A stretch of 64,000 bases of DNA. Source: an uncultured Clostridia bacterium. Its GTDB lineage: Bacteria > Bacillota > Clostridia > UBA1381. Location of the stretch: NCBI GenBank assembly GCA_947624485.1, contig CANQKM010000008.1:62001-126000 (forward strand), given 5' to 3'. How positions within the stretch are numbered: position 1 is the first letter of the stretch; each line of letters begins with the position of its first letter. This document shows, in pieces, positions 26,192 through 39,317 of the stretch. The translations under genes and the position numbers were made by a program. The notes under the pieces are model-generated. The model was not told the DNA's origin, ran no database searches, and saw nothing but the letters and a program-made list of their open reading frames with translations.

Positions 26192-26228
26192 ACCGTTGAA
26201 GTCCGCGGTACGGAAAGGGGCGATAAAG

Positions 26229-26948
26229 ATGTACAGGCTTGCTATATGCGACGATGACAGGGATTTTTGCTCTTCGCTTGAAAAATTCCTGCGCGGTTTT
26301 TTTGCCGCAAAAAACATGGAATGTGCAATTTCATCCTTTGCCGATACGCAGTCGCTCGACGCTTCTTTGACGGGCGGCGCGGATTACGATTTGCTGTTTC
26401 TCGACATAATGTTCAAGCAGGATAACGGTATGAACTACGCGAAATATCTGCGCGACAGGGGATATAAGCTTGACATTGTTTTTATAACCACCTCCAAGGA
26501 ATACGCGGTCGAGAGCTTTGACGTAAACCCGCTCTATTACTTGATAAAACCGATAGAGCAGCAAAAGCTGACGGCTGCGCTGCGGCGTTTCTTTGAAAAA
26601 AATGCGCCCCGGTACATATGCTTTAATTCGCTCGGCGGCACGATAAAAATAAAGCTTTCGGATATATATTACTTTGAGATTTACGGGCATCAGGTTCTTA
26701 TTCATAAAAGCGACGGAACTCAGTCGGACATCCGCGGAACGCTGAAGGATATAGAGTCACAGCTTCCGCCGGGAATGTTCATACGCCCTCACAGAAGCTA
26801 CCTCGTCAACACCGAGTACATCACCGAGATTATACACTATACCATAAAAACCACAAACGGCGACTCCATACCCGTAAGCAGGTCGCTGTATAATAAAATC
26901 CAGTACGAATTCGTGGATTACCTTGCCGAAAAGGAATTGTTTGTATAA
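26229..26948 (+). CDS. LytTR-family response regulator
   Basis: 239 residues. Receiver domain 1-120 (LAICDDDRDFCSSLEKFL; phospho-acceptor Asp in YDLLFLDIMFKQDNGM; conserved Lys in YYLIKPIEQQKL) and LytTR DNA-binding domain 135-235 (IYYFEIYGHQVLIHKSDG, FIRPHRSYLVN). AgrA/VirR-type regulators control peptide signalling, cell-wall or bacteriocin genes. The convergent GHKL sensor kinase at 27852-29744 is the likely partner; a small cassette has been inserted between them. ATG at 26229 follows AAAGGGG. Confidence 0.92.
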   Translation: MYRLAICDDDRDFCSSLEKFLRGFFAAKNMECAISSFADTQSLDASLTGGADYDLLFLDIMFKQDNGMNYAKYLRDRGYKLDIVFITTSKEYAVESFDVNPLYYLIKPIEQQKLTAALRRFFEKNAPRYICFNSLGGTIKIKLSDIYYFEIYGHQVLIHKSDGTQSDIRGTLKDIESQLPPGMFIRPHRSYLVNTEYITEIIHYTIKTTNGDSIPVSRSLYNKIQYEFVDYLAEKELFV

Positions 26949-27851: not shown

Positions 27852-29744
27852 TTATATATTTTCCTTTTTCATATAAAATCCGCTTTTTAAGGAGAAGGAC
27901 GTATTGTCGCGGTCGATTTTTACGACGCCGCCGTATTTTTCGGCGATGCGTTTCATATTTTCCAGACCGTAGCCGTGGGTGCGGCTCTTTTTTGCTTCCG
28001 CCTCGGGGTGATGCGCGCTGTTTGCGCAGCCTATAAAGAGGTAATTTCCCTTTATATACATTTTCGTCTTTATATACCGTTTCTCCGACGCGTCAACCTT
28101 CTCGCAGGCGTTCAGCGCGTTCTCGAACATATTCGTGATAAACACGCACAGATCCGTGTCGGCTATCGGCAGCGTTTCGGGCAGGTTTAAGCTGTATTCC
28201 GTTTCTACACCGAGCGACTTCGCCCGTTCAAGATACGTACCCGCGATTATATTTACCATAGTGTTTTTGCTGTAGCGCCCCTTTGGAAGCTCGTCATATT
28301 CGTCCGTCAGCGCGGCGGCGTACTCGCGTGCCTTATCGGTATCGCCCTCCTGAAGCATACCCGACAGGACGACCATGTGATGCCGCATTTCATGCCTTGC
28401 GGCATACGTCGCTTCCTCCGACGCCGCTATGCGCCTGTAGCTCTCCATCGCGTAACGGTTCTGCTCCGACAGCACATTTATAAGCTCTCTCGTGCGCAGC
28501 GTTCTTTTCACAAATTCAATTATTACAGCCGACGTGACGGTAACGGCGCAAACGTACGATACGAACAGCATCAGCGGGTAAAAATAACCTGCGAGCGGCT
28601 CCGCCAATACTTGCTGCATATATACACCTATATTGCCTCCCCATTCCGCGCTCTTTATAATTATACGGCTTATTATGGCAATTATGGCAATTCCGACGTA
28701 CACAAGGTCGGATTTTGCCGGGCGTTCCCTCTTTTTCAGCTTTATTTCAACTATTGCAAATGCCGCAGCCAGCGCATACAAAAGCAGTATTATCGGAGCG
28801 GAGGCCTGAGCGAAAAACGGTCCGTACATTATTCTGTACCGTATCAGCCTTATAAAGTCGTACACGAACCACGCTCCCGTCGCGGAAGCCAATATCCACC
28901 GCCGCCACGATGTCAGGCTGAACGCCGCGAACATCAAAAGCGGCGCCATATACAGCTCGCAGATGAAATCAAGCATATTCAGCTTATCGGTAAAAACGCT
29001 GTACGATCCCGCCAGGGAAGAAAATGCCTGCTGTATTGTCAGCATAAAATAAAACAGCGTCAGAAGCAGCACCTTTTTGTCCGGCTTGCCGTTCGATATG
29101 TCAAGGACGTATACAAGCGCTGTCAAAAAGGCGAGAATCGCGCACAGCGTCGCGCCGGCTACGGGCGGAACATTCTCCACCGACGTTATGGCAAACGACG
29201 CGTCAATGCTGGTCATGTAGGGAAAAACGGGAATTATCTGATCCGTTTCGGCAGGGAAGTACGTAATCACCGTAAGTTCCTTGCCGAGGTAATCGTCCGG
29301 CAGGAAAAACTCAGTCGTTTCCGACGATGCGGGTGCGAGACCGTCCGTAACGACGAACCCCGCCTCGTCCCTCGGCGCACCCTCAAAGCTCGTGTAAAGC
29401 ATTTCACCGCCGAGAAGCACGTCAACTCCGCAAACCGCGTCGTACAGGTATACTCCAAGCTGCGCGCCGTCCATTTGCTCATTTATCGTCCGCGACGCTT
29501 TTACCGCGCGGCACGTTTCACCGGGAAAGCCTACGGTAAAATCGTCAATAAGCTCGGGTGAGACAGGTCTTGTTTCGGAGCCGGTAATAAGCTCATATTC
29601 CCAACCCATATCGGGCGACGGGTTCATGGATATATCCTTGATATCTGTCCTGCTGAGCAGCACAAACACCGCAACAAGCATAACAAGGACGGCTGCCGCG
29701 ATAAATCCGCCGAATATGTATTGTTTTTTCTGTGCCGTATCCAT
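27852..29744 (-). CDS. Sensor histidine kinase (GHKL type) with extracytoplasmic domain
   Basis: 630 residues. N-terminal membrane helix (residues 9-31), an extracellular domain of about 170 residues, then seven or eight membrane segments (about 205-430), as in 7TMR-type sensors, and a cytoplasmic kinase. The phospho-acceptor region is YAARHEMRHHMVVLSGML and the ATPase has NMFENALNAC and HGYGLENMKRIAEKYGG. This kinase class pairs with LytTR regulators. The ATG at 29744 follows AAAGGAGGG. Convergent with the LytTR gene; the ligand is unknown. Confidence 0.88.
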   Translation of the reverse strand: MDTAQKKQYIFGGFIAAAVLVMLVAVFVLLSRTDIKDISMNPSPDMGWEYELITGSETRPVSPELIDDFTVGFPGETCRAVKASRTINEQMDGAQLGVYLYDAVCGVDVLLGGEMLYTSFEGAPRDEAGFVVTDGLAPASSETTEFFLPDDYLGKELTVITYFPAETDQIIPVFPYMTSIDASFAITSVENVPPVAGATLCAILAFLTALVYVLDISNGKPDKKVLLLTLFYFMLTIQQAFSSLAGSYSVFTDKLNMLDFICELYMAPLLMFAAFSLTSWRRWILASATGAWFVYDFIRLIRYRIMYGPFFAQASAPIILLLYALAAAFAIVEIKLKKRERPAKSDLVYVGIAIIAIISRIIIKSAEWGGNIGVYMQQVLAEPLAGYFYPLMLFVSYVCAVTVTSAVIIEFVKRTLRTRELINVLSEQNRYAMESYRRIAASEEATYAARHEMRHHMVVLSGMLQEGDTDKAREYAAALTDEYDELPKGRYSKNTMVNIIAGTYLERAKSLGVETEYSLNLPETLPIADTDLCVFITNMFENALNACEKVDASEKRYIKTKMYIKGNYLFIGCANSAHHPEAEAKKSRTHGYGLENMKRIAEKYGGVVKIDRDNTSFSLKSGFYMKKENI

Positions 29745-29783
29745 CGCACGCCCTCCTTTCCGATGTCGTTTCACTTACAGAGC

Positions 29784-30968
29784 TTATATAAATTTAAGCG
29801 TGTTGATCGCAGTGTCGATCTGCGGTATGATTACATTCCTAATGCTCTGCACCACGCCTTTCGCGCGCTCCTCATACGAGCTGACTTTGCTATTTACGAT
29901 AAGGCGCAGATACGCGTAGCGCACTTGCGCGAATACGTTCATACCGTCAATCGCAGCCTTAAACCGGTCGTCCGTCAGACCTCCGAAATATTTTTCGTTG
30001 AACTTTTCAATAAGCCTTTTGCACATATCCGCGCTTATGCCAAGATACCGCATAGTGTCGGCGTCGCCGCGCTTTGGCATTTCCGTGTACGCGTAATAAA
30101 TATTGCACAGGTCGTATATCGGGTGTCCGCACATTATCTCGTCCATGTCGATAAGCAGAAGCTCGCCGTTTTGAATCATGATATTGCGCGCGTGCAAATC
30201 GCCGTGAACCATCGTGTTCCTGTCGGGTATCGCGTCAAAAAGGCGCATAAGCTCACCGTATTCATCGTCCGTCAGATGATTTTTTATCTTGGCAAACGTG
30301 CCGCGGTACAAGTCGTTCGCGCGGACGGAAATAATATCGCTCACGTCCGTGGAATGTACCGTCCTTACCAGATTTATATACTTTTCCGCGTACTCGTCGA
30401 ATTTTTCGGGATTGGCGGTAAGCGCGTTCGCCAGCGTGTCCGACTTTATGAGCTCGAATACCACGCCGTAACGGTCGCCGCACTTTACCATATCGTACGA
30501 AATAGCCGTCGGAACGCCCTTGATAAACGCCTGCTTTGCATAATTCATCTCTCGCTTTATCGTGTCCGTTCCGGCTGACTTGTACACCTTTACGATCGTT
30601 TCGTCGTCAATGCGGTACACTATTCCGAAGCCGCCCTCGCCGATTTTTTCACAGCCGTCAACCGATATTTCGCGCAGCGCCTTCTCTACGTCGATTATTT
30701 CGGAAAAGCCCGTCATTTCAAATATCTCGTACACCTCCGGCGACGCGTTTATAACCTTTGAATCATCTATCGTCTTTTTGAGCTTTAATATAACCCTAAG
30801 TCCCGCACTCGATATGTACTCCGTGCCGGCAGCGTCGAGTATAACGCCCTTCGCGCCGCTTTTATGCGTAAGGTCAAATATCTCGTTTTCAACCTCCGCG
30901 GCGTTGTTTGAGTCCACTCTGCCGCACAATTTAACCGTTAAAATTCCGTCATTGCAAATGCTTTCCAT
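29784..30968 (-). CDS. STAS domain fused to an APH/choline-kinase-like kinase (paralogue A)
   Basis: 394 residues. Residues 1-98 are an anti-sigma-factor-antagonist STAS domain with TEYISSAGLRVIL; S53/S54 is the site normally phosphorylated by an RsbW/SpoIIAB-type kinase. From about 105 begins a eukaryotic-like kinase fold: glycine loop IGEGGFGIVY, Lys in IVKVYK, catalytic H255-GDLHARN262 and metal site LLIDMDE. I recall the kinase part as TIGR02172-like. All catalytic residues are intact. ATG at 30968 after AAGGAGAG. Paralogue B at 36550-37725 aligns along its whole length. Confidence 0.85.
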   Translation of the reverse strand: MESICNDGILTVKLCGRVDSNNAAEVENEIFDLTHKSGAKGVILDAAGTEYISSAGLRVILKLKKTIDDSKVINASPEVYEIFEMTGFSEIIDVEKALREISVDGCEKIGEGGFGIVYRIDDETIVKVYKSAGTDTIKREMNYAKQAFIKGVPTAISYDMVKCGDRYGVVFELIKSDTLANALTANPEKFDEYAEKYINLVRTVHSTDVSDIISVRANDLYRGTFAKIKNHLTDDEYGELMRLFDAIPDRNTMVHGDLHARNIMIQNGELLLIDMDEIMCGHPIYDLCNIYYAYTEMPKRGDADTMRYLGISADMCKRLIEKFNEKYFGGLTDDRFKAAIDGMNVFAQVRYAYLRLIVNSKVSSYEERAKGVVQSIRNVIIPQIDTAINTLKFI

Positions 30969-31016
30969 TTTAACTCTCCTTGCCAATTTAATTTTCTGAT
31001 ATATAACTCCATTTTA

Positions 31017-31045
31017 ATTTTATCTTATTTTGCTCAAAAAATCAA
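31017..31045 (-). promoter_or_regulatory. Promoter of STAS-kinase A
   Basis: On the minus strand: TTGATT (31045-31040), 17 bp, TAAAAT (31022-31017). Shares GTATTGATTTTTTGA with the promoter at 39398-39426. Confidence 0.65.
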
Positions 31046-31086
31046 TACCGTGGCGTGAAATGCCGTATATATGACATAAATTTATC

Positions 31087-31116
31087 TTGAAAGGCGGCGG
31101 GGAGAAGTGGTACAAT
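31087..31116 (+). promoter_or_regulatory. Promoter of the phosphatase-reductase unit
   Basis: TTGAAA (31087-31092), 18 bp, TACAAT (31111-31116), divergent from STAS-kinase A. Confidence 0.6.
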
Positions 31117-31151
31117 ATAATAAAGCAATATTAACCCAAGGAGGATTAACC

Positions 31152-32078
31152 ATGAATAATTTAGCAAAACGCGTACTTGCCGCAGTTGCCGCGTCGTCGG
31201 TTATTTTGACCGCCGCATGCTCCGGCGGCGTGACGCAGGAAAAAGAGGAACAGCCGCCGACCGTTTCACTCGAAACGCAGGCGATAGAGCTTGACGGGGT
31301 GGGCAATGCGCGTCAGCTCGGCGGCTACGTATGCGCCGACGGACGGAAGATAAAGGACGGCGTGCTTTTAAGGAGCGCCGCGCTTTCCACTCTCACGGAT
31401 GAGGGCGCGAAAACTCTGTCGGAAAAGTACCATTTAAGGTACGTGTTCGATTTCAGAACGGAAACGGAGCGTGAAGCGCAGCCCGACAAGGAGGTTGAGG
31501 GTGCGGAAAACGTATGGCTGCCGGCATTCGCGTCATCGCTGTACGACGATGAAACAGTGGCTGCGATAATGGAGGCAAGAAAAACGAACGATCCCGAACA
31601 GACGTATATAACGCTTGCGAAGCACAAGGGACTTTCAACGATATATTCAAAGATGCTCCTGACCGACGAGGGCAAAAAGGCATACTCGGAGTTTTTTGAC
31701 AAGCTGCTCACCGTCGGGGACGGCGAGGCTGTACTGTGGCACTGCACGCAGGGCAAGGACAGAGCCGGAATGGCGGCTGTGCTGCTTCTGTATGCGCTCG
31801 GCGCGGACGAGGACACGATCAAACAGGATTATCTTTTGACAAACGATTCGTACAAGGACTTGATTGCACAAAGCGAGGCACGTGCGGCGGAGCTTGGTCT
31901 TAACGAGGACGAAACAAAGGAATACGTCGGAACAGCCGCGGCGGTGTACGAGGATTTCTTTAACATTGCGGTTGACAGCGTTAAAGCGGAGTACGGCTCG
32001 GTCGAGGCTTATCTCACCGACGGTCTCGGCTTAACGGACGGCGATATAACGGCTCTGCGCGATAAATTTCTTGAATAA
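31152..32078 (+). CDS. Lipoprotein tyrosine/serine phosphatase (Y_phosphatase3-like)
   Basis: 308 residues. Signal peptide with lipobox (VILTAACSGG), so the mature enzyme should be tethered outside the membrane. The phosphatase domain begins GVGNARQLGGYV and has the CX5R loop HCTQGKDRAGMA. It belongs to the PtpB/IphP-like group acting on phospho-Tyr, phospho-Ser or phosphoinositide-like substrates. The ATG at 31152 has AAGGAGG; an upstream ATG in the promoter region is rejected. Divergent from STAS-kinase A, which may be coincidence since the phosphatase is extracytoplasmic. Confidence 0.88.
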   Translation: MNNLAKRVLAAVAASSVILTAACSGGVTQEKEEQPPTVSLETQAIELDGVGNARQLGGYVCADGRKIKDGVLLRSAALSTLTDEGAKTLSEKYHLRYVFDFRTETEREAQPDKEVEGAENVWLPAFASSLYDDETVAAIMEARKTNDPEQTYITLAKHKGLSTIYSKMLLTDEGKKAYSEFFDKLLTVGDGEAVLWHCTQGKDRAGMAAVLLLYALGADEDTIKQDYLLTNDSYKDLIAQSEARAAELGLNEDETKEYVGTAAAVYEDFFNIAVDSVKAEYGSVEAYLTDGLGLTDGDITALRDKFLE

Positions 32079-32093
32079 AAATTGGAGACGTTT

Positions 32094-32657
32094 ATGAAGA
32101 AAATTTTATTTGTAAACACATGCGTGCGAAAAGAGTCGCGCACAAACGCGCTCGCGAGCGCTCTCATTGAAACTCTTGACGGCGAGGTTACGGAGGTACG
32201 TCCCGATTTGTGCGGACTGAAGCCGCTCGATGAAAGCTCGCTCAATCGCCGTGAGGAACTGCTTGCGGCGGGAGATTTTGACGCGGCGGAGCTTGACGCG
32301 GCGAGACAGTTCGCCGCCGCCGACATAATCGTGATTGCCGCGCCGTACTGGGATCTGACGTTTCCCGCGCTGCTTAAAATTTACCTTGAAAACATTACGG
32401 TATGCGGCGTGACGTTCCGCTATACCGACGAGGGTATTCCGGAGGGCTTGTGCCGCGCGGAAAAGCTGTATTACGTCACGACCTCGGGCGGACCGATTAT
32501 ACACAATTTCGGCTTTGAATACGTCGACGCGCTCGTGAGGGAGTTTTACGGCATAAAGGAAACGCGCTTTGTTTCCGCCGAAGGACTTGACATAATCGGC
32601 GCGGACGCCGAGGGAATACTTAACGATGCGATATGTAAAATCAAAACGCAGAACTAA
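32094..32657 (+). CDS. NAD(P)H-dependent flavin oxidoreductase (azoreductase-like)
   Basis: 187 residues with the flavodoxin-like fold of NQO/AcpD enzymes: KKILFVNTCVRKESRTNALASALIE binds the FMN phosphate, APYWDLTFPALLKIYLENI is the quinone/azoreductase signature, and VTTSGGPI follows. Reduces quinones, azo dyes or similar electrophiles. The ATG at 32094 follows TGGAG; it starts 15 bp after the phosphatase gene and ends at a strong bidirectional terminator. Confidence 0.88.
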   Translation: MKKILFVNTCVRKESRTNALASALIETLDGEVTEVRPDLCGLKPLDESSLNRREELLAAGDFDAAELDAARQFAAADIIVIAAPYWDLTFPALLKIYLENITVCGVTFRYTDEGIPEGLCRAEKLYYVTTSGGPIIHNFGFEYVDALVREFYGIKETRFVSAEGLDIIGADAEGILNDAICKIKTQN

Positions 32658-32690
32658 AAAAAACAGACCGCTCCTGCGGTCTGTTTTTTT
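32656..32690. terminator. Bidirectional terminator
   Basis: CAGACCGC (32664-32671) pairs with GCGGTCTG (32676-32683), flanked by A8 and T7. It lies between converging transcription units. Confidence 0.9.
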
Positions 32691-32697
32691 AATCAGT

Positions 32698-33312
32698 TTA
32701 CGCGAATGTCTTTTTAATAACTATATCCACATTCCTGCCGATAACGCCGACGATTACGTCGTCCGCGAGGTTGGCGATTATGGACTTTTCAAGCTCATCC
32801 CATGCGTCGCTGTCCTTGTTGTCGTCGGCGCACTCCTTGTAGCTGCTCAGTGACCATGCGTGGAGCCACCTGTCGTCATACGCGTTCGCGGCGCACACGC
32901 CCATGTCGTAAAAGTCGTAATATTCGCCGCCGCCCGACACCTTTGCGGCTTCGAGGTAGCCGTCGAGCATACCCTCGGCGACAAGTCTTATCTTGTTTAT
33001 AATGCCCTTCGACGCGGCGTTTTTGCCCGACTTTGAAAGGGAAAGAATGTCCTCCTTGTCGAACATCGACAGGCGCTCCGCCTTGATCGATGCGTGAAGC
33101 TCGAAGTTATTTCCTTCATTTTCAATCCAGAACTTACCGCTGCCGACTTCGAGAAGCTCCGGCAGCATGCCCACAAGCTCCTCCGCGAGAAGCCTTAACT
33201 GCAGAGCCTGCTTTTTTGGAAGCTTGTTGTACTCGGCTGACTTTTCAACCTCGGCAAATATTGCGCCGAATGTCTCCTTATCGCTTGAAATCGTGCAAAT
33301 ATCCGTTTTCAT
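32698..33312 (-). CDS. RsbW-like degenerate ATPase or helical signalling protein
   Basis: 204 residues, soluble. The segment LRLLAEELVGMLPELL resembles the N-box helix of anti-sigma-factor serine kinases, and ENEGNNFELHASIKAE looks like the following beta hairpin. No convincing G1/G2 ATP-lid glycines are visible, so kinase activity is doubtful. It is the last gene of the partner-switching run, 23 bp after the SpoIIE-type gene. It could bind a STAS protein without phosphorylating it. Family not securely recognised. Confidence 0.55.
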   Translation of the reverse strand: MKTDICTISSDKETFGAIFAEVEKSAEYNKLPKKQALQLRLLAEELVGMLPELLEVGSGKFWIENEGNNFELHASIKAERLSMFDKEDILSLSKSGKNAASKGIINKIRLVAEGMLDGYLEAAKVSGGGEYYDFYDMGVCAANAYDDRWLHAWSLSSYKECADDNKDSDAWDELEKSIIANLADDVIVGVIGRNVDIVIKKTFA

Positions 33313-33335
33313 ATTTTTTCCTTCTTTCTGTATTT

Positions 33336-36167
33336 TTATGAGTTCAAAGCCATTACAAGCTTCAAAATATTTTTATTGTTTTCGTATTTGTAGTCCATGC
33401 TTTCTGTCATTTGCTTGACCATGAAAATGCCCAGACCGCCTATCTGCCGCTCCTCGGCTGACAGCGTTATATCGGGATCCTCCTTTTCGAGCGGATTGTA
33501 CGGCTGACCGTCGTCCTCGAACGTCAGATTCAGCTTGTTTTTCTCTATCGAATAGGAAATCTGCGCCGTTTTCGCCTTGCTGTAATTGATTATGTTCGAG
33601 GCAATTTCGTCTATCGCAATGCTCACCTTGCTCGAAATTTTCGGAAGCACGTCGAGCTTCGACGTAAGCTGCTCCGCGAAATCGCTTACCGCCGCGCCCG
33701 CGTCCTTGCCGGGGATGAACGATATTTTATCGTCGCCCTTGATGAAGTTAAGACGGAAGCTCACCATCGTAATATCGTCAAACTGCGGCGCGTCGCCGAC
33801 GAAGCGGTCTATGTCCTTCTTGACCTCCCCGCAGATCGACTTTACGTCGGTGTCGCCGAGCGAATTCAAGAAACCGACAAGTCTGTCCTCGCCGTAAAGC
33901 TGATCATTCTTGTCCGTCGCCTCGGTCACGCCGTCGGTGTAAAGATAAATCCTGTCGCCGGGGGATAGCTGTATTTCGGTCTTTCTGTATTTGATCCCTT
34001 CCATGCCGGCAAGAACAAATCCCGCGCGCATTTTTTCGTAATCGAATTTACCGTCCGCGCGCTTTATGACGGGCGGATTGTGTCCCGCGTTCGCGACGCT
34101 CATAATACCGGTTTTCAAATCGACTATCGCCATCCACGCCGTAACGAACATGCCCGCGTCGTTGTTTTCGCAGAGCTTCGCGTTTGCCTGCGTGAATATG
34201 TCGTTTACTTCGAGACCGCTTTCTGCGAGGTCTTTTATAATGGTCTTAGCCTTCATCATAAACATCGCAGCCGGTATGCCCTTGCCCGAAACATCCGCTA
34301 TAAGGAACGCGATCGTCGAGTCGTCGAGCATATAGAAGTCGTAGAAATCGCCGCCGACCTCCTTCGCCGTGTCCATCTGAGCGTATATGTCAAATTCCCT
34401 GCGGTTGGGGAACGGGGGGAACACCGACGGAAGAGCCGAGCTTTGTATCTGCTTCGCGAATTCAAGCTCCGCGTCGATCCGTGCCTCCGCCTCGGAGATG
34501 TACCGCTTTAACGTGTCGACGGTGGAGTTAATGTCGTCCGACAGCGACGCGAATTCCTCGTTGTCGCGCACGTCCACGGTAACGTTGAGGTTGCCGTTCG
34601 TGATTTTCGACAGCGCGCGGTTTACCTCGTTCAGATTGTCTATGATAAGCTTCTTTATGAGGAAGTACACGAGCGCGAACAGAGCCGCAAAAATCAGCAC
34701 CTCCATGAATGAGCTTAGATAAACCGACACGTCGCGCATAAACAGCGCCTCTTCCTCGCCGATAACGCCGACGATGTAATAGCCCTCCGCGAACTCATAT
34801 TCGCCCAGATACGGCTTGCCGTTAATCTCCGTGCCAAATATGGTATTTTCCGCGTACTTTTCGGTATCAACCCGTATGCCGAGGCTTGCGAGGTTGTAGC
34901 CGGTGTAATCCGTGCCCTCGCTCACTATGTTCCACTCCTCGTCGCAGATAACGATAAAGCCGTTTTCGCCTATGTGGCGGTTTTTTGCTATTTTTTTAAC
35001 GGTGCTGTCAATATCGGCGCGGAACTCGTTCGCGTCGTAGCCGACCTGCAGGAATCCGCCGCCCTGGAGCGACACGCCGCCGTATTTGTACGCGACGCTG
35101 CTGTCGTAGGACTGCGGGCGGTACTCCTGCGCGAACGACTTATGCGTGCCGTCAAGGAGTATGAGAAACTCCGCTGACTGCTCGCCGCTCGCCATATCGA
35201 AGCCGATATACTGCGGAACGTTTGTGTTCACGATTATGCCGTTATCGTCGATAATATGAATTTCCGCGACCTTGTATTTGTCCGCGAGCGACTGCAGAAA
35301 CTCCGCGCTTTTATCGCCCGACGCGATATATTCGCTCTTTATGAGGTTCGTTTTATTGAGCAGGTTTTCGTCCGACGTATCCTGAATATCTTGGTTCACG
35401 TCGTCGATGCTCGTCTTTATGACTGTTTCCGTCTCCGTGTTGGACATTTGACTCTGCAGCATATAGGTGTACGTGCTTGTCAGCACATACGCCACGACGA
35501 TACATATAAACAGCCACGTCTGGAAAGTCCGCGAAATATGCCTTTTCCCGAACTGCACGGTGTCCCTGTCCTTGCCGAGCAGCGATATTGCAAGCACCGC
35601 CGCGCCGACCGAAAAGCCGTTGCAGAGCATCATCGGCAGCGAGCATACCTTAACGAAGCCGAACGCGGTACTCGGATCGTTCGCGTTTGTGAAGAAAATC
35701 ATCAGCATGTGTATGACTTCACAAATCATGCCGATACCCAAGCCGTAGATCCAGCCCGGCTTTTTATCGTCGAACATGAATTTCCTAAGCGCCGCCGCGA
35801 TAAAGCCGGCAAGAGCCGTGGAAATCGAGCATGCAAGCTGCGTGTACGTTCCCGTAAGCCCGAAGAACGCCGAAATATATCGGTACAAGCCGCCTATGAT
35901 ACCGGCGATAATACCCGCCGGCGCGCCGAATATAAGACCGGCGCAGAGCGGAGCCGCGTCGCGGACGTTCATGATCGTGCCGTCGCCGATGTCCACACCG
36001 GCGATACTCGTGCTTGCGAACGACGCCATCGCTCCGAACAGAATACCTATAATTATCTGTTTCTTCTTATATCCTATCCGCCCGAACGCGGTCTTTTTTT
36101 CGGCGATATATATAAGCACCGCCAGAATCGCGTTGTAAAGAGCCGTCAGTATAAGTGTAAAAACCAT
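33336..36167 (-). CDS. SpoIIE/RsbU-type PP2C phosphatase fused to an RsbW-type kinase, membrane receptor
   Basis: 943 residues. Domains in order: LytS/YhcK-like 5TM module (about 1-200), a membrane helix, an extracytoplasmic Cache-like sensor (about 240-460), membrane helix (VLIFAALFALVYFLIKKLI), HAMP-like linker, PP2C/SpoIIE phosphatase (about 575-800; KEVGGDFYDFY, LIADVSGKGIPAAMF, NAGHNPP), and a C-terminal HATPase_c with DEIASNIINYS, FEDDGQPYNP and GGLGIFMVKQM. It could both phosphorylate and dephosphorylate STAS proteins. The ATG at 36167 has AAGGAAG 8 nt upstream; the GTG nine bases earlier is too close. Confidence 0.9.
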   Translation of the reverse strand: MVFTLILTALYNAILAVLIYIAEKKTAFGRIGYKKKQIIIGILFGAMASFASTSIAGVDIGDGTIMNVRDAAPLCAGLIFGAPAGIIAGIIGGLYRYISAFFGLTGTYTQLACSISTALAGFIAAALRKFMFDDKKPGWIYGLGIGMICEVIHMLMIFFTNANDPSTAFGFVKVCSLPMMLCNGFSVGAAVLAISLLGKDRDTVQFGKRHISRTFQTWLFICIVVAYVLTSTYTYMLQSQMSNTETETVIKTSIDDVNQDIQDTSDENLLNKTNLIKSEYIASGDKSAEFLQSLADKYKVAEIHIIDDNGIIVNTNVPQYIGFDMASGEQSAEFLILLDGTHKSFAQEYRPQSYDSSVAYKYGGVSLQGGGFLQVGYDANEFRADIDSTVKKIAKNRHIGENGFIVICDEEWNIVSEGTDYTGYNLASLGIRVDTEKYAENTIFGTEINGKPYLGEYEFAEGYYIVGVIGEEEALFMRDVSVYLSSFMEVLIFAALFALVYFLIKKLIIDNLNEVNRALSKITNGNLNVTVDVRDNEEFASLSDDINSTVDTLKRYISEAEARIDAELEFAKQIQSSALPSVFPPFPNRREFDIYAQMDTAKEVGGDFYDFYMLDDSTIAFLIADVSGKGIPAAMFMMKAKTIIKDLAESGLEVNDIFTQANAKLCENNDAGMFVTAWMAIVDLKTGIMSVANAGHNPPVIKRADGKFDYEKMRAGFVLAGMEGIKYRKTEIQLSPGDRIYLYTDGVTEATDKNDQLYGEDRLVGFLNSLGDTDVKSICGEVKKDIDRFVGDAPQFDDITMVSFRLNFIKGDDKISFIPGKDAGAAVSDFAEQLTSKLDVLPKISSKVSIAIDEIASNIINYSKAKTAQISYSIEKNKLNLTFEDDGQPYNPLEKEDPDITLSAEERQIGGLGIFMVKQMTESMDYKYENNKNILKLVMALNS

Positions 36168-36190
36168 CGGATACACTTCCTTTTATCGAA

Positions 36191-36487
36191 TTACTCGATT
36201 GTGAGAATATCAACAAAGCCGGTAATATCGAATACTTCCATGATTGTTTCGTTCACGCCGGTAATCTTCATCGTACCCTTTGTGTTCATGATTTTCTGCG
36301 CCTTTAAGAGTACGCGAAGTCCCGCCGACGAGATGTATTCGAGGTCGGTGAAGTCCAGGCAAAGCTCCGTCGCGCCGCCAAGAGCCGTGTCGAGAGCCGC
36401 TTCAAGCTCGGGCGCGGTAACCGTGTCAAGTCTGCCCGATAAAGCGAGCGTTACTTTTCCGTTTTCGTTTGTTTGATTGATTGTCAT
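36191..36487 (-). CDS. STAS anti-sigma-factor antagonist (RsbV/SpoIIAA-like)
   Basis: 98 residues, a single STAS domain. LEYISSAGLRVLLKAQK carries the conserved phospho-acceptor Ser (S53 or S54). It is presumably the free target of the kinase and phosphatase domains of the adjacent large receptor. AAGGAGAG precedes the ATG. The SSAGLR block is shared with the STAS parts of both kinase fusions. No sigma factor gene occurs in the cluster. Confidence 0.93.
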   Translation of the reverse strand: MTINQTNENGKVTLALSGRLDTVTAPELEAALDTALGGATELCLDFTDLEYISSAGLRVLLKAQKIMNTKGTMKITGVNETIMEVFDITGFVDILTIE

Positions 36488-36549
36488 AATAAATCTCTCC
36501 TTAATATTTATTATATTAAATTTTTACAAATTTAAGCGTATATCAGCGG

Positions 36550-37725
36550 TCAGAATTTCACCGCGCCTATTAAGTTCTCCGCGTTCGGGAAGAACGTCTG
36601 TCTGCTTATACCGATAAGCGTTTCCTTCAGCTGCTGCGGGTTTGACTTGTTCACGGCTGACGCGACGGTGAATTTCATCATGCCGAACGCCGTCAGAAGA
36701 CCGTTCATCTTCTTAAGCCCCTCTTCTCCGAGAGAGCCGAACCGCGCCTTTACGAGATCGTTCCACAGTCTTACGCCGGTCTCGTAGTCTATGCCCATTA
36801 TCTGTACCGCTCTCTGGGGCGCTCTGCCTCCGGCAATCACGTGCGTGAGAGCCATGCCCATGTAATCGAAAACGGGGTGACCGTATGTGATGTCCGCCAT
36901 ATCTATAAACACAAGCTCTCCGCCCTGGACCATCACGTTTTTCGGGTGAATGTCGCCGTGGACGAATGTGTTCCTGTCTGGGACACTGTTTATTATTTCA
37001 TGCAGGATCCCGATTTCATCAGCCGTGAGAAGCTCCGCCATTTCGTCAGCCCATTGGTTGTATAAGCCCTTTATGTTCGACAGACGGCTCGTGTCCGCCT
37101 CGGTCGTGTGGAGCGTGTTTACAAGCTCGATATACTTCTTTGAATATTCGTCGTACTTGTCGGGATTCTTGGCAAGTACATTTCCCAGCGTGTCGGCGTT
37201 TAAAAGCTCGAACACCGAGCCGTAGCAGCTGCCGCATTTCACCACGTCAAACGGAATAGCCGTCGGAACCCCTGCCACAAACGCGTTTCTCGCGTACTCT
37301 ATTTCACGCTCTATCTCGGCGAGCGGCTCTGTTTCGGCGTACATTTTCAAAATCGTGTCGCCGTTAAGACGGTAAACCGTGCCGTGACCGCCCTTGCCGA
37401 TTATCTCGCAGCCCTCGACCGAAATCTCGCGGAACGCTTTTTTCATGTCGATAATGTCGATAAAGCCGGTCATGCTGAAAATATCGTACACCTCCGGCGA
37501 CGCGTTTATTATTTTCGAGTCCTCGACGGTTTTTTTGAGCTTTAAGATAACTCTTAATCCCGCGCTCGAGATATATTCCGTGTCAGCCGCGTCGAGAATC
37601 ACGCTTTTTGCGCCGCACTCCCCGATCGCCGCGAACAATTCCTTATCGACGTCGGACGCGTTGTTCGAGTCGATTCTTTTTAATAATTTAACTGTCAAAA
37701 TTCCGTCACTGTAAGAGTGTTCCAT
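36550..37725 (-). CDS. STAS domain fused to an APH/choline-kinase-like kinase (paralogue B)
   Basis: 391 residues, collinear with paralogue A at 29784-30968. STAS 1-98 (TEYISSAGLRVIL), kinase from about 105: IGKGGHGTVYRLNGDTILKMY, catalytic HGDIHPKN (256-263), metal site FIDMADI. Second metal Asp differs (IDMAD here, IDMDE in A). The substrate is unknown; the STAS part should let it dock with the RsbW-type domain nearby. GGAGGT lies 11 nt before the ATG. Gap to the NlpC/P60 gene upstream is only 20 bp. Confidence 0.85.
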   Translation of the reverse strand: MEHSYSDGILTVKLLKRIDSNNASDVDKELFAAIGECGAKSVILDAADTEYISSAGLRVILKLKKTVEDSKIINASPEVYDIFSMTGFIDIIDMKKAFREISVEGCEIIGKGGHGTVYRLNGDTILKMYAETEPLAEIEREIEYARNAFVAGVPTAIPFDVVKCGSCYGSVFELLNADTLGNVLAKNPDKYDEYSKKYIELVNTLHTTEADTSRLSNIKGLYNQWADEMAELLTADEIGILHEIINSVPDRNTFVHGDIHPKNVMVQGGELVFIDMADITYGHPVFDYMGMALTHVIAGGRAPQRAVQIMGIDYETGVRLWNDLVKARFGSLGEEGLKKMNGLLTAFGMMKFTVASAVNKSNPQQLKETLIGISRQTFFPNAENLIGAVKF

Positions 37726-37745
37726 ATATGTCCATTACCTCCATA

Positions 37746-39317
37746 TTATTTTATAACCACGGCATGGCTTAAATTTCCGAGCCACGTCGAGCCGTTGCCG
37801 CGAAGTGTCGAAAGGTCGTTGACTATAACGCTTCTCGGCTTCACGATAACGCCCGGACGGTCGGGCGGCACGAGCGAGCTTACATCGTTTATCGTGTAAT
37901 ACAGCCCGTTGTCCTTGCCGAGGTAGAGCATTTCATGTCCCGGGAATATCAGTATCGCGCCCGCCGGGAGCGTGTCGAGGACGGCTTTCTTCTCGTCGTC
38001 CGTCATATCGGACATAACCGTCACGTCAGCCGGCATTGCCGACTGCCACGTCGTATTTCTCGGAATTTCGAGACCGAAGCAGCGGTACACCTCGCGCGCG
38101 TAGGACGAGCAGTCCTGTGAGTTCATCATGCCGCCCCAGCCGTAACGGTTGCCGAGCGACTTAAACGCCTGCGTGACAACGTTCGCGGTAGAGTAGGGGA
38201 GGTAGCCGACGTTCACGTCGCGGTTCGCGGGAATGAGAGCGTTCTTTTGGTAAAAGCTTCCGTCCTTGTTCCGCGCGGGCATTTTAACGACGTAATTGTT
38301 CCACGGCAGCCTGTACGACACCGTGCCGGTCTCGTCCGTAACGAGCGGCAGAACCGTTCCCATCGTGAGCATTTTCTCGTTCAGATCCGCGTCCGCGCTC
38401 GGCTCAAGGTATACCTTTTCACCCGTCACGACAAGAAATTTGTCGGGATTTAAGTATTTTTCCCACTCCGTCTTGTCGGCGCAAACACCTATATCCTCCG
38501 TCGGAACCCAGCCGGAGCAGCACCGGCTCCTTGCCATTGTGAATTTGCCGTCGCCCGTTGTGAACAGCAGCACGAGCGGCTCGTTCACTGCCACGCCGCT
38601 CGAAACGAGGTTATCCCATTCGGGATCGGACGGATCGTCGGACAGGTAATCCTCGTACGGGTACGCCTTCATGACCGTCCTGTTTACCGCGAAGCCGAAT
38701 CTGTACGGCATATTATCTGTTACCGGCGAATTGCGTATGTTTTCACGTATCGCCTCGTAATAGCTTTCCGGAACGGGTTCGCCGTTTAAGTAAAGTCCCG
38801 CGGGCGACTCAAAATCCGCGTTAAGCTCCGCAAGCATAACTCCGTTATATGTGCCTTCCACAGCGGCGAGGTCGTTTGTGTACGTTTCGGGAGTGTCAAG
38901 AACCTTGCGGTTAAACGCCGCGATTTCATCTTCCGTCATAACAATTTCGTCCGAGCAGTTTTCCTTATTGTGCCAGAACGACGCAGCGCACATCTCGCTC
39001 GTAACGTTCGGAGCTTTAACGGTGCCGTCCATATTGTTAAGCACGTCGCCCACTCCGCGCGTGTAGTCCGACATAATAACCTCACCGACGGGACGAAGAC
39101 CGCTGCTCCATTGGAACAGCTTCGCCTTTGCCGCATCGTCGGGCGCGAGCGTGTCAAGTACGTTTTTAAGCTCGCCTTCGTCAAATTTTTTCGCGTCTAT
39201 GAGCGCGCCGCTGTCGTTGTAGTACGCGCATATATACATAACGTCATCCGCCGCGTGCGATACGGGCGCAATGACTGCCGCAGCGATCAGCGCGGCGGCA
39301 ATGGCTTTAAGTTTCAT
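37746..39317 (-). CDS. Secreted NlpC/P60 peptidase with SH3-like domains
   Basis: 523 residues. Signal peptide (AIAAALIAAAVIAPVSHA), an N-terminal domain of about 230 residues, SH3-like domains (about 240-370; GWVPTEDIGVC), and an NlpC/P60 cysteine peptidase with catalytic C403 in QDCSSYAREVYRCFG and H461 in FPGHEMLYLG. Such enzymes cut gamma-D-Glu-diaminopimelate bonds in peptidoglycan (YkfC/DvlA type). It heads the co-oriented run leading into the partner-switching genes and has its own strong promoter. Confidence 0.88.
   Translation of the reverse strand: MKLKAIAAALIAAAVIAPVSHAADDVMYICAYYNDSGALIDAKKFDEGELKNVLDTLAPDDAAKAKLFQWSSGLRPVGEVIMSDYTRGVGDVLNNMDGTVKAPNVTSEMCAASFWHNKENCSDEIVMTEDEIAAFNRKVLDTPETYTNDLAAVEGTYNGVMLAELNADFESPAGLYLNGEPVPESYYEAIRENIRNSPVTDNMPYRFGFAVNRTVMKAYPYEDYLSDDPSDPEWDNLVSSGVAVNEPLVLLFTTGDGKFTMARSRCCSGWVPTEDIGVCADKTEWEKYLNPDKFLVVTGEKVYLEPSADADLNEKMLTMGTVLPLVTDETGTVSYRLPWNNYVVKMPARNKDGSFYQKNALIPANRDVNVGYLPYSTANVVTQAFKSLGNRYGWGGMMNSQDCSSYAREVYRCFGLEIPRNTTWQSAMPADVTVMSDMTDDEKKAVLDTLPAGAILIFPGHEMLYLGKDNGLYYTINDVSSLVPPDRPGVIVKPRSVIVNDLSTLRGNGSTWLGNLSHAVVIK

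Follow-up and report, generated by a model that had tools for sequence, protein, structure and literature searches.

The subject of this analysis is a locus on contig C8 of an uncultured Clostridia bacterium (genome of 2.7 Mb, 91% complete), which lies within the stretch of 64,000 nucleotides examined here and called the window. Besides a free STAS protein and a membrane receptor that carries both a SpoIIE phosphatase and an RsbW-type ATPase, the locus encodes two paralogous proteins, FusA and FusB, in which a STAS domain and an APH-like kinase share one chain. Partner switches are best known for the control of sigma factors, with few exceptions in which an enzyme is controlled. For the locus described here, it is probable that the partner-switching system has an enzyme as its output, gating a small-molecule kinase and not a sigma factor. 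The parts of the locus and their coordinates had been given in a preliminary description made from the sequence alone, and all proved correct on re-reading. The features are as follows.

37746..39317, minus strand: NlpC/P60 hydrolase, 20 bp upstream of FusA (Pfam, synteny)
36550..37725, minus strand: FusA, STAS domain (residues ~1-97) and APH-like kinase (~100-391) (Pfam, alignment, structure model)
36191..36487, minus strand: free STAS protein, RsbV-type, 98 residues, SSAGL phosphosite (Pfam, sequence)
33336..36176, minus strand: receptor with 5TM-LYT, extracytoplasmic region, weak HAMP, SpoIIE phosphatase and RsbW-type HATPase (Pfam)
32698..33312, minus strand: P204, RsbW-fold protein of 204 residues
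32082..32657, plus strand: flavodoxin fold gene
31107..32078, plus strand: Y_phosphatase3 protein, transcribed divergently from FusB, lipoprotein-like N terminus by eye (Pfam 4.9e-63)
29784..30968, minus strand: FusB, second STAS-APH paralogue (Pfam, alignment; ribosome-binding site and ATG)
27852..29774, minus strand: GHKL sensor

Switch proteins and fused kinases

Relatives of the fusions are abundant, with at least 566 matched stretches encoding a relative of the STAS domain, of the kinase or of both. The 80 named loci used throughout are the best-scoring of these and not a random sample. All 80 have a STAS-APH reading frame in which both domains are encoded, and their record titles name Clostridia, Erysipelotrichaceae and Coriobacteria, mostly from animal guts. 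The system also occurs in a cultured commensal, Blautia schinkii DSM 10518 (locus L076). FusA and FusB, which share 46% identity, were added to the alignment (A2) of the 86 fusions of these loci, from which L137 (partial) and L145 (long) were omitted. The residues S54, K127, H256, D258, N263 and D275 are invariant in 86 of the 86 aligned fusions. The phosphosite of FusA is S54 (S53/S54), and both this site and the catalytic residues of the kinase are retained in FusA and FusB, in agreement with the earlier statement that a STAS domain is joined to an intact APH-like kinase. A kinase domain unable to bind ATP, which the preliminary description had named as a refuting finding, is not predicted from the alignment, given that the catalytic residues do not vary.

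The kinase parts belong to the APH superfamily (PF01636), with scores of 53.9 and 60.2 bits against a cut-off of 23.2, the HxD...N...D pattern present and the fold in agreement. The structure model of FusA (predicted local distance difference test, pLDDT, of 95.2) superposes on RsbV and on small-molecule kinases of the APH/choline type, and it is to small-molecule kinases that the kinase part is closest by sequence as well as by fold. TIGR02172, a Fibrobacter paralogous family of APH-like proteins, is the top NCBIfam match of both kinase domains, with 101.9 and 103.8 bits, scores that lie under the family cut-off of 228.2 bits and leave both domains outside it. That family differs from the fusions in covering a kinase region of 226 positions without STAS, and no paper naming it was found in the literature searched. 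Models of defence systems gave marginal matches only to the fusions (17-18 bits). There is no sign of a phage system, since the viral contigs gave one relative, with similarity confined to the STAS part.

The receptor has a SpoIIE phosphatase domain (PF07228, 4.9e-49) in which D610, D628, D748 and D801, which we take to be the metal ligands of this PPM phosphatase, are invariant in 31 receptors. Its RsbW-type HATPase domain scores 54.4 bits with PF13581, against a cut-off of 27.4. The length of 943 residues given for the receptor assumes the ATG at 36167 as start. The phosphorylatable serine that is invariant in the fused STAS domains is also found in the free STAS protein of the window (SSAGL), and 27 of the 29 free STAS proteins of the 80 loci contain SSAGL or SSSGL. 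The three domain types that define a partner-switching module of the RsbU/RsbW/RsbV type are all present. The sensors of the 31 receptors vary, with 5TM-LYT in 6, dCache_1 in 3 and a periplasmic-binding type in 1; HATPase_c_2 occurs in 19. These receptors were selected by their SpoIIE domain, and their alignment (A4) omits 3 of 33 loci, which have SpoIIE fragments.

The protein P204 has an RsbW fold. By eye, neither the N-box Asn nor the DxG motif was seen in 21 aligned rows (18 distinct), which bears out the preliminary description of a degenerate RsbW-like protein. P204 gave no family match, its profile comparison against HATPase domains was not significant, and a sequence search of solved structures gave nothing. 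It is probably a STAS-binding pseudokinase. A second pair of P204 and free STAS lies near FusB in genome G007, apart from the main locus (L064:5932-6971).

Genome-wide, six STAS matches were found: a SpoIIAA-like protein, the free STAS, FusA, FusB and two proteins with a C-terminal STAS domain. The SpoIIAA-like gene adjoins genes for an RsbW-type protein and a sigma factor, and was read by eye as part of a sigF operon. Two RsbW-type ATPases are over the cut-off, namely SpoIIAB and the receptor, with two weaker matches under it. Given that no other RsbW-type ATPase outside sporulation exceeds the cut-off, the receptor is the sole candidate found as the kinase of five STAS proteins (four are fused to other domains), in a genome whose incompleteness could hide another. 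No sigma factor is linked to the locus, as had been stated before: none of the 16 Sigma70_r2 matches of the genome is on contig C8.

The two proteins with a C-terminal STAS domain (L006:535-1791 on C2 and L004:1495-2601 on C1) are related to each other, contain SSAGL and have a weakly methyltransferase-like N-terminal part. The one that was scanned matches Methyltransf_25 with an E value of 5e-4, under the cut-off, and the other is its close relative; further relatives occur in other genomes (L072, L173). In a FastTree tree of STAS domains, 87 fused domains are split with a support of 1.0 from 29 free STAS and the 2 methyltransferase-like ones, which group with the free STAS. The coexistence of two STAS classes fits a competition for one partner, and the two methyltransferase-like fusions may share this receptor. 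A methyltransferase-like STAS gene near a SpoIIE-like gene (L156) was judged to be weak evidence and set aside.

Linkage of the fusions to switch genes

Close relatives keep the order FusA, free STAS, receptor and P204, even where FusB is on another contig. In distant relatives the genes are rearranged with the components still together: L045 has STAS, SpoIIE, HATPase, an HD-like gene and the fusion, L049 has SpoIIE-HATPase next to a longer fusion, L074 has SpoIIE next to the fusion, and in L046 and L047 a one-chain STAS-APH-HATPase protein lies next to a free STAS. Single chains that unite STAS, APH and an RsbW-type HATPase occur in 11 of the 80 loci, and make the physical link of switch and kinase explicit.

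Within 6 kb of the fusion, SpoIIE was found in 33 of the 80 loci, a HATPase domain in 42 and any of SpoIIE, HATPase and free STAS in 48. For the 43 loci with flanks of at least 5 kb and at least 4 kb on their two sides, the numbers are 22, 30 and 33, respectively. The 42 HATPase loci include 11 with the domain in the fusion itself and one for which the sole basis is a long HATPase protein that lacks SpoIIE, and the profile used also picks up other HATPase proteins. The chance expectation for SpoIIE within 6 kb is approximately 1.1%, calculated from 19 strong matches in ten fusion-bearing genomes, and the observed linkage is approximately 40 times higher; the chance figure takes SpoIIE matches with E <=1e-35, and the SpoIIE calls in the 80 loci come from a looser profile of our own. 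The fusion's strand is shared by 59 of the 61 SpoIIE and HATPase genes within 6 kb.

Co-occurrence was evaluated in two sets of genomes. In the family sample (70 genomes), a strong SpoIIE is present in 16/16 genomes with a fusion versus 9/54 others (p 8e-10), using a cut-off of 120 bits that was chosen after viewing the list (gap from 125.9 to 117) and genomes counted by eye. In the class-wide sample (148 genomes), it is present in 10/10 fusion genomes versus 42/138 others (p 1.6e-5), with full fusions in 8 of these 10 and matches mainly over the kinase part in G203 and G226. The samples share G000 and G034, and the family set overlaps with the 80 loci in at least four contigs (L075, L077, L082, L088). 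No fusion was found in the genomes of either sample that have no strong SpoIIE. The linkage of fusion and receptor in related genomes, which had been proposed as a check, is conserved well beyond the genus.

STAS-less APH proteins of approximately 249 residues, found in relatives of the same bacterial family approximately 3 kb from a SpoIIE-like gene (five loci, L158-L162), were not counted as this system, because they are accompanied by a ferredoxin-type gene and by a SpoIIE match that is both weak and different.

Phosphohydrolase, transporter and other neighbours

Three families of phosphohydrolases recur within 400 bp of the fusions, with HD_4 in 16 of the 80 loci, PHP in 6 and Y_phosphatase3 in 6 (28 loci). 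They were never found together in one locus. Each of the 16 HD_4 hydrolases has the HDxxED motif, 15 are upstream of the fusion, and the frames of 11 overlap that of the fusion when the first start codon is taken. With seeds taken from genes within 6 kb of fusions, the comparison of genes near (<300 bp, n=134) versus far (>3 kb, n=428) in the same loci gave 16 versus 0 for HD_4, 6 versus 0 for PHP and 6 versus 0 for Y_phosphatase3, a PHP member at 868 bp (L139) being dropped. The scan of the other adjacent genes (A5, 51 of 52, one very long frame omitted) gave 6 matches to PAP2 and 2 to histidine phosphatases, and the PAP2 motif was found in 4/123 near genes versus 0/384 far genes. In the control with distal genes (A6, 120 of 171), none of these phosphohydrolase families is among the 25 listed, which puts each of them at two members or fewer. 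The Y_phosphatase3 protein of the window is the only match in its genome and faces FusB, and its relatives lie close to fusions elsewhere. The presence of unrelated phosphohydrolases in one position suggests that kinase and phosphatase act as a pair on one phosphorylated compound. In L153:6434-7912, an HD_4 domain and an APH-like kinase are found in one protein, a one-chain form of this pairing.

These neighbours bear on whether the APH domain could be an input of the switch, acting as a second kinase that phosphorylates its own STAS or the free STAS beside the RsbW-type domain. The kinase is indeed fused to a phosphorylatable STAS domain, and 38 of the 80 fusion loci have no HATPase domain within 6 kb. 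However, such a kinase would be redundant with the RsbW-type kinase, which is intact here and in the same chain in 11 loci, its fold and sequence are closest to those of kinases for small molecules, and the phosphohydrolase neighbours would be left unexplained. We consider this arrangement quite unlikely.

Transporters are also found near the fusions. MATE-like genes occur within 6 kb in 15 of the 80 loci, 10 of these with a HATPase domain, and ABC-exporter-like genes (named by eye) in 8. Several MATE-like transporters have a C-terminal RsbW-type HATPase (L121:12082-13815, L115:10884-12635, L118:13795-15564 and others), and for L121, the only one tested, Pfam confirms MatE and HATPase_c_2. A further transporter, L148:7313-8923, is of the SDF type and possibly related in its N-terminal part. 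Such neighbours, together with the aminoglycoside, hygromycin and capreomycin kinases that are among the closest solved structures, would be expected if the fusions were switch-controlled kinases that inactivate antibiotics or detoxify compounds in a defence shared with the transporters. Nonetheless, identity to these structures is only 10-17%, all matches to resistance models are far under their cut-offs, and HD_4, PHP and Y_phosphatase3 neighbours suggest a phosphorylation that can be reversed. A role in detoxification is, therefore, improbable.

With regard to the layout of the window, the order of transcription on the minus strand is NlpC/P60, FusA, free STAS, receptor, P204 and then, past two plus-strand genes, FusB and the GHKL sensor. 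Ribosome-binding sites were read by eye upstream of FusA, free STAS and FusB, and the NlpC/P60 gene is retained next to FusA in several close relatives. A scan for terminators (15 versus 15.5, chance level) and promoters (17 versus 9.9) was not used. The locus is adjoined by a LytTR-type regulator (by eye, 26196-26948) and the GHKL sensor (27852-29774), which are on opposite strands and are possibly a separate two-component pair; similar LytTR/GHKL genes are found near FusB in some relatives.

Proposed control of the kinase and relation to known systems

In the proposed mechanism, the membrane receptor would sense a cue from outside, its RsbW-type ATPase would phosphorylate the serines of the free STAS and of the fused STAS domains, and its SpoIIE domain would dephosphorylate them. 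Unphosphorylated STAS would bind the RsbW-type ATPase, and probably also the inactive RsbW-fold P204, with the free STAS and the kinase-borne STAS domains presumably in competition for one partner. Binding or phosphorylation would set the activity or the placement of the kinase, control presumably running in this direction, and the kinase would phosphorylate a putative small-molecule substrate or a nucleotide. This phosphorylation may then be reversed by a phosphohydrolase partner, a role that the Y_phosphatase3 protein perhaps has in the window.

Several observations weigh against this mechanism. No SpoIIE, HATPase or free STAS is found within 6 kb of the fusion in 32 of the 80 loci (10 of the 43 with full flanks), and in G034 both fusions lack a neighbour resembling the switch proteins of the window, the strong SpoIIE genes of that genome lying elsewhere. 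Genome G047 (99% complete, L052) keeps STAS, receptor and P204 with NlpC/P60 upstream, with no FusA between them and no fusion found. The co-occurrence is one-way, given that 9 of the 25 family genomes with a strong SpoIIE have no fusion, and the fusion is uncommon, being present in 10 of the 148 genomes of the class-wide sample. In the window itself, FusA has no phosphohydrolase directly adjoining, and the lipoprotein-like start of the Y_phosphatase3 protein means that it may not meet the product of a cytosolic kinase.

The loci without a switch gene nearby are what would be expected if STAS-APH were an independent enzyme, with a STAS domain that binds something else (e.g., a nucleotide), and travelled passively with signalling genes. 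This is very improbable given the excess of the linkage over chance, the shared strand, the HATPase domain in the same chain in 11 loci and the restriction of the fusions, among the sampled genomes, to those with a strong SpoIIE. The proposal that the fusions are the enzymatic output of the switch, already made in the preliminary description, is strengthened by the linkage, the intact residues and the single-chain loci. It does not hold for the kinase as the sole output everywhere, because G047 has the switch proteins with no fusion found, and the earlier interpretation as a whole is partly supported.

Systems with some of these properties are known. In the SiaABCD system of Pseudomonas aeruginosa, the diguanylate cyclase SiaD is activated by SiaC, whose phosphorylation is controlled by the PP2C-like phosphatase SiaA and the kinase SiaB (PMC7647112, PMC8457831). 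There too the output of the switch is an enzyme and not a sigma factor, but enzyme and switch protein are two different chains, while here STAS and APH-like kinase are in one chain and, unlike in SiaABCD, phosphatase and kinase share one receptor. No GGDEF match was obtained among nine proteins scanned, and GGDEF proteins were not searched for in the genome. The SpoIIAA/SpoIIAB/SpoIIE and RsbV/RsbW/RsbU systems of Bacillus have a sigma factor as output, and none is linked here (PMC8256260, PMC11418112). Anabaena all4160 has an N-terminal STAS domain on an enzyme described as a glycosyltransferase (PMC8256260), and is a precedent for a STAS-enzyme fusion with an enzyme that differs from the APH-like kinase; the text on it mentions no adjoining switch receptor. 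In Campylobacterota, sets of STAS, PP2C and HATPase genes were proposed from their gene neighbourhoods to act on cyclic di-GMP enzymes or chemoreceptors, an earlier prediction of outputs other than sigma factors; these involve separate STAS proteins and other outputs, and the available text of that report mentions no STAS-kinase fusion (PMC9239204). SypE of Vibrio fischeri is a dual kinase and phosphatase for the STAS protein SypA (PMC8256260). It resembles the receptor as proposed here, in which one protein would act as both kinase and phosphatase for a STAS, and differs in that SypA is a lone STAS. SypE is a response-regulator protein, not a 5TM-LYT receptor. No description of STAS-APH proteins, of their HATPase fusions or of their phosphohydrolase neighbours was found in titles and abstract openings, with subscription journals mostly uncovered, and the only co-mention of 'STAS domain' and 'aminoglycoside phosphotransferase' found is a paper on dermatophytes.

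A wider role can be envisaged, although we regard it as rather unlikely in its entirety. In gut Firmicutes, STAS-APH would write a phosphorylated small-molecule signal that is as yet undescribed, with the partner switch controlling the writer and interchangeable erasers (RSH-like HD_4, PHP, Y_phosphatase3 and perhaps PAP2) adjoining it. The MatE-HATPase transporters would be under the same free STAS, and one receptor would govern kinases, methyltransferase-like enzymes and transport without a transcription step.

In these fusions, the docking domain of the switch sits directly on a kinase. An outside cue would thereby be coupled to the phosphorylation of a small molecule, by a route that can be tested, in commensals that are poorly understood, and the phosphohydrolase neighbours provide a concrete starting point for finding the substrate of the kinase. 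Judging by the other enzymes tagged with STAS and by the MatE-HATPase fusions, partner switching may serve these bacteria more generally as a post-translational bus.

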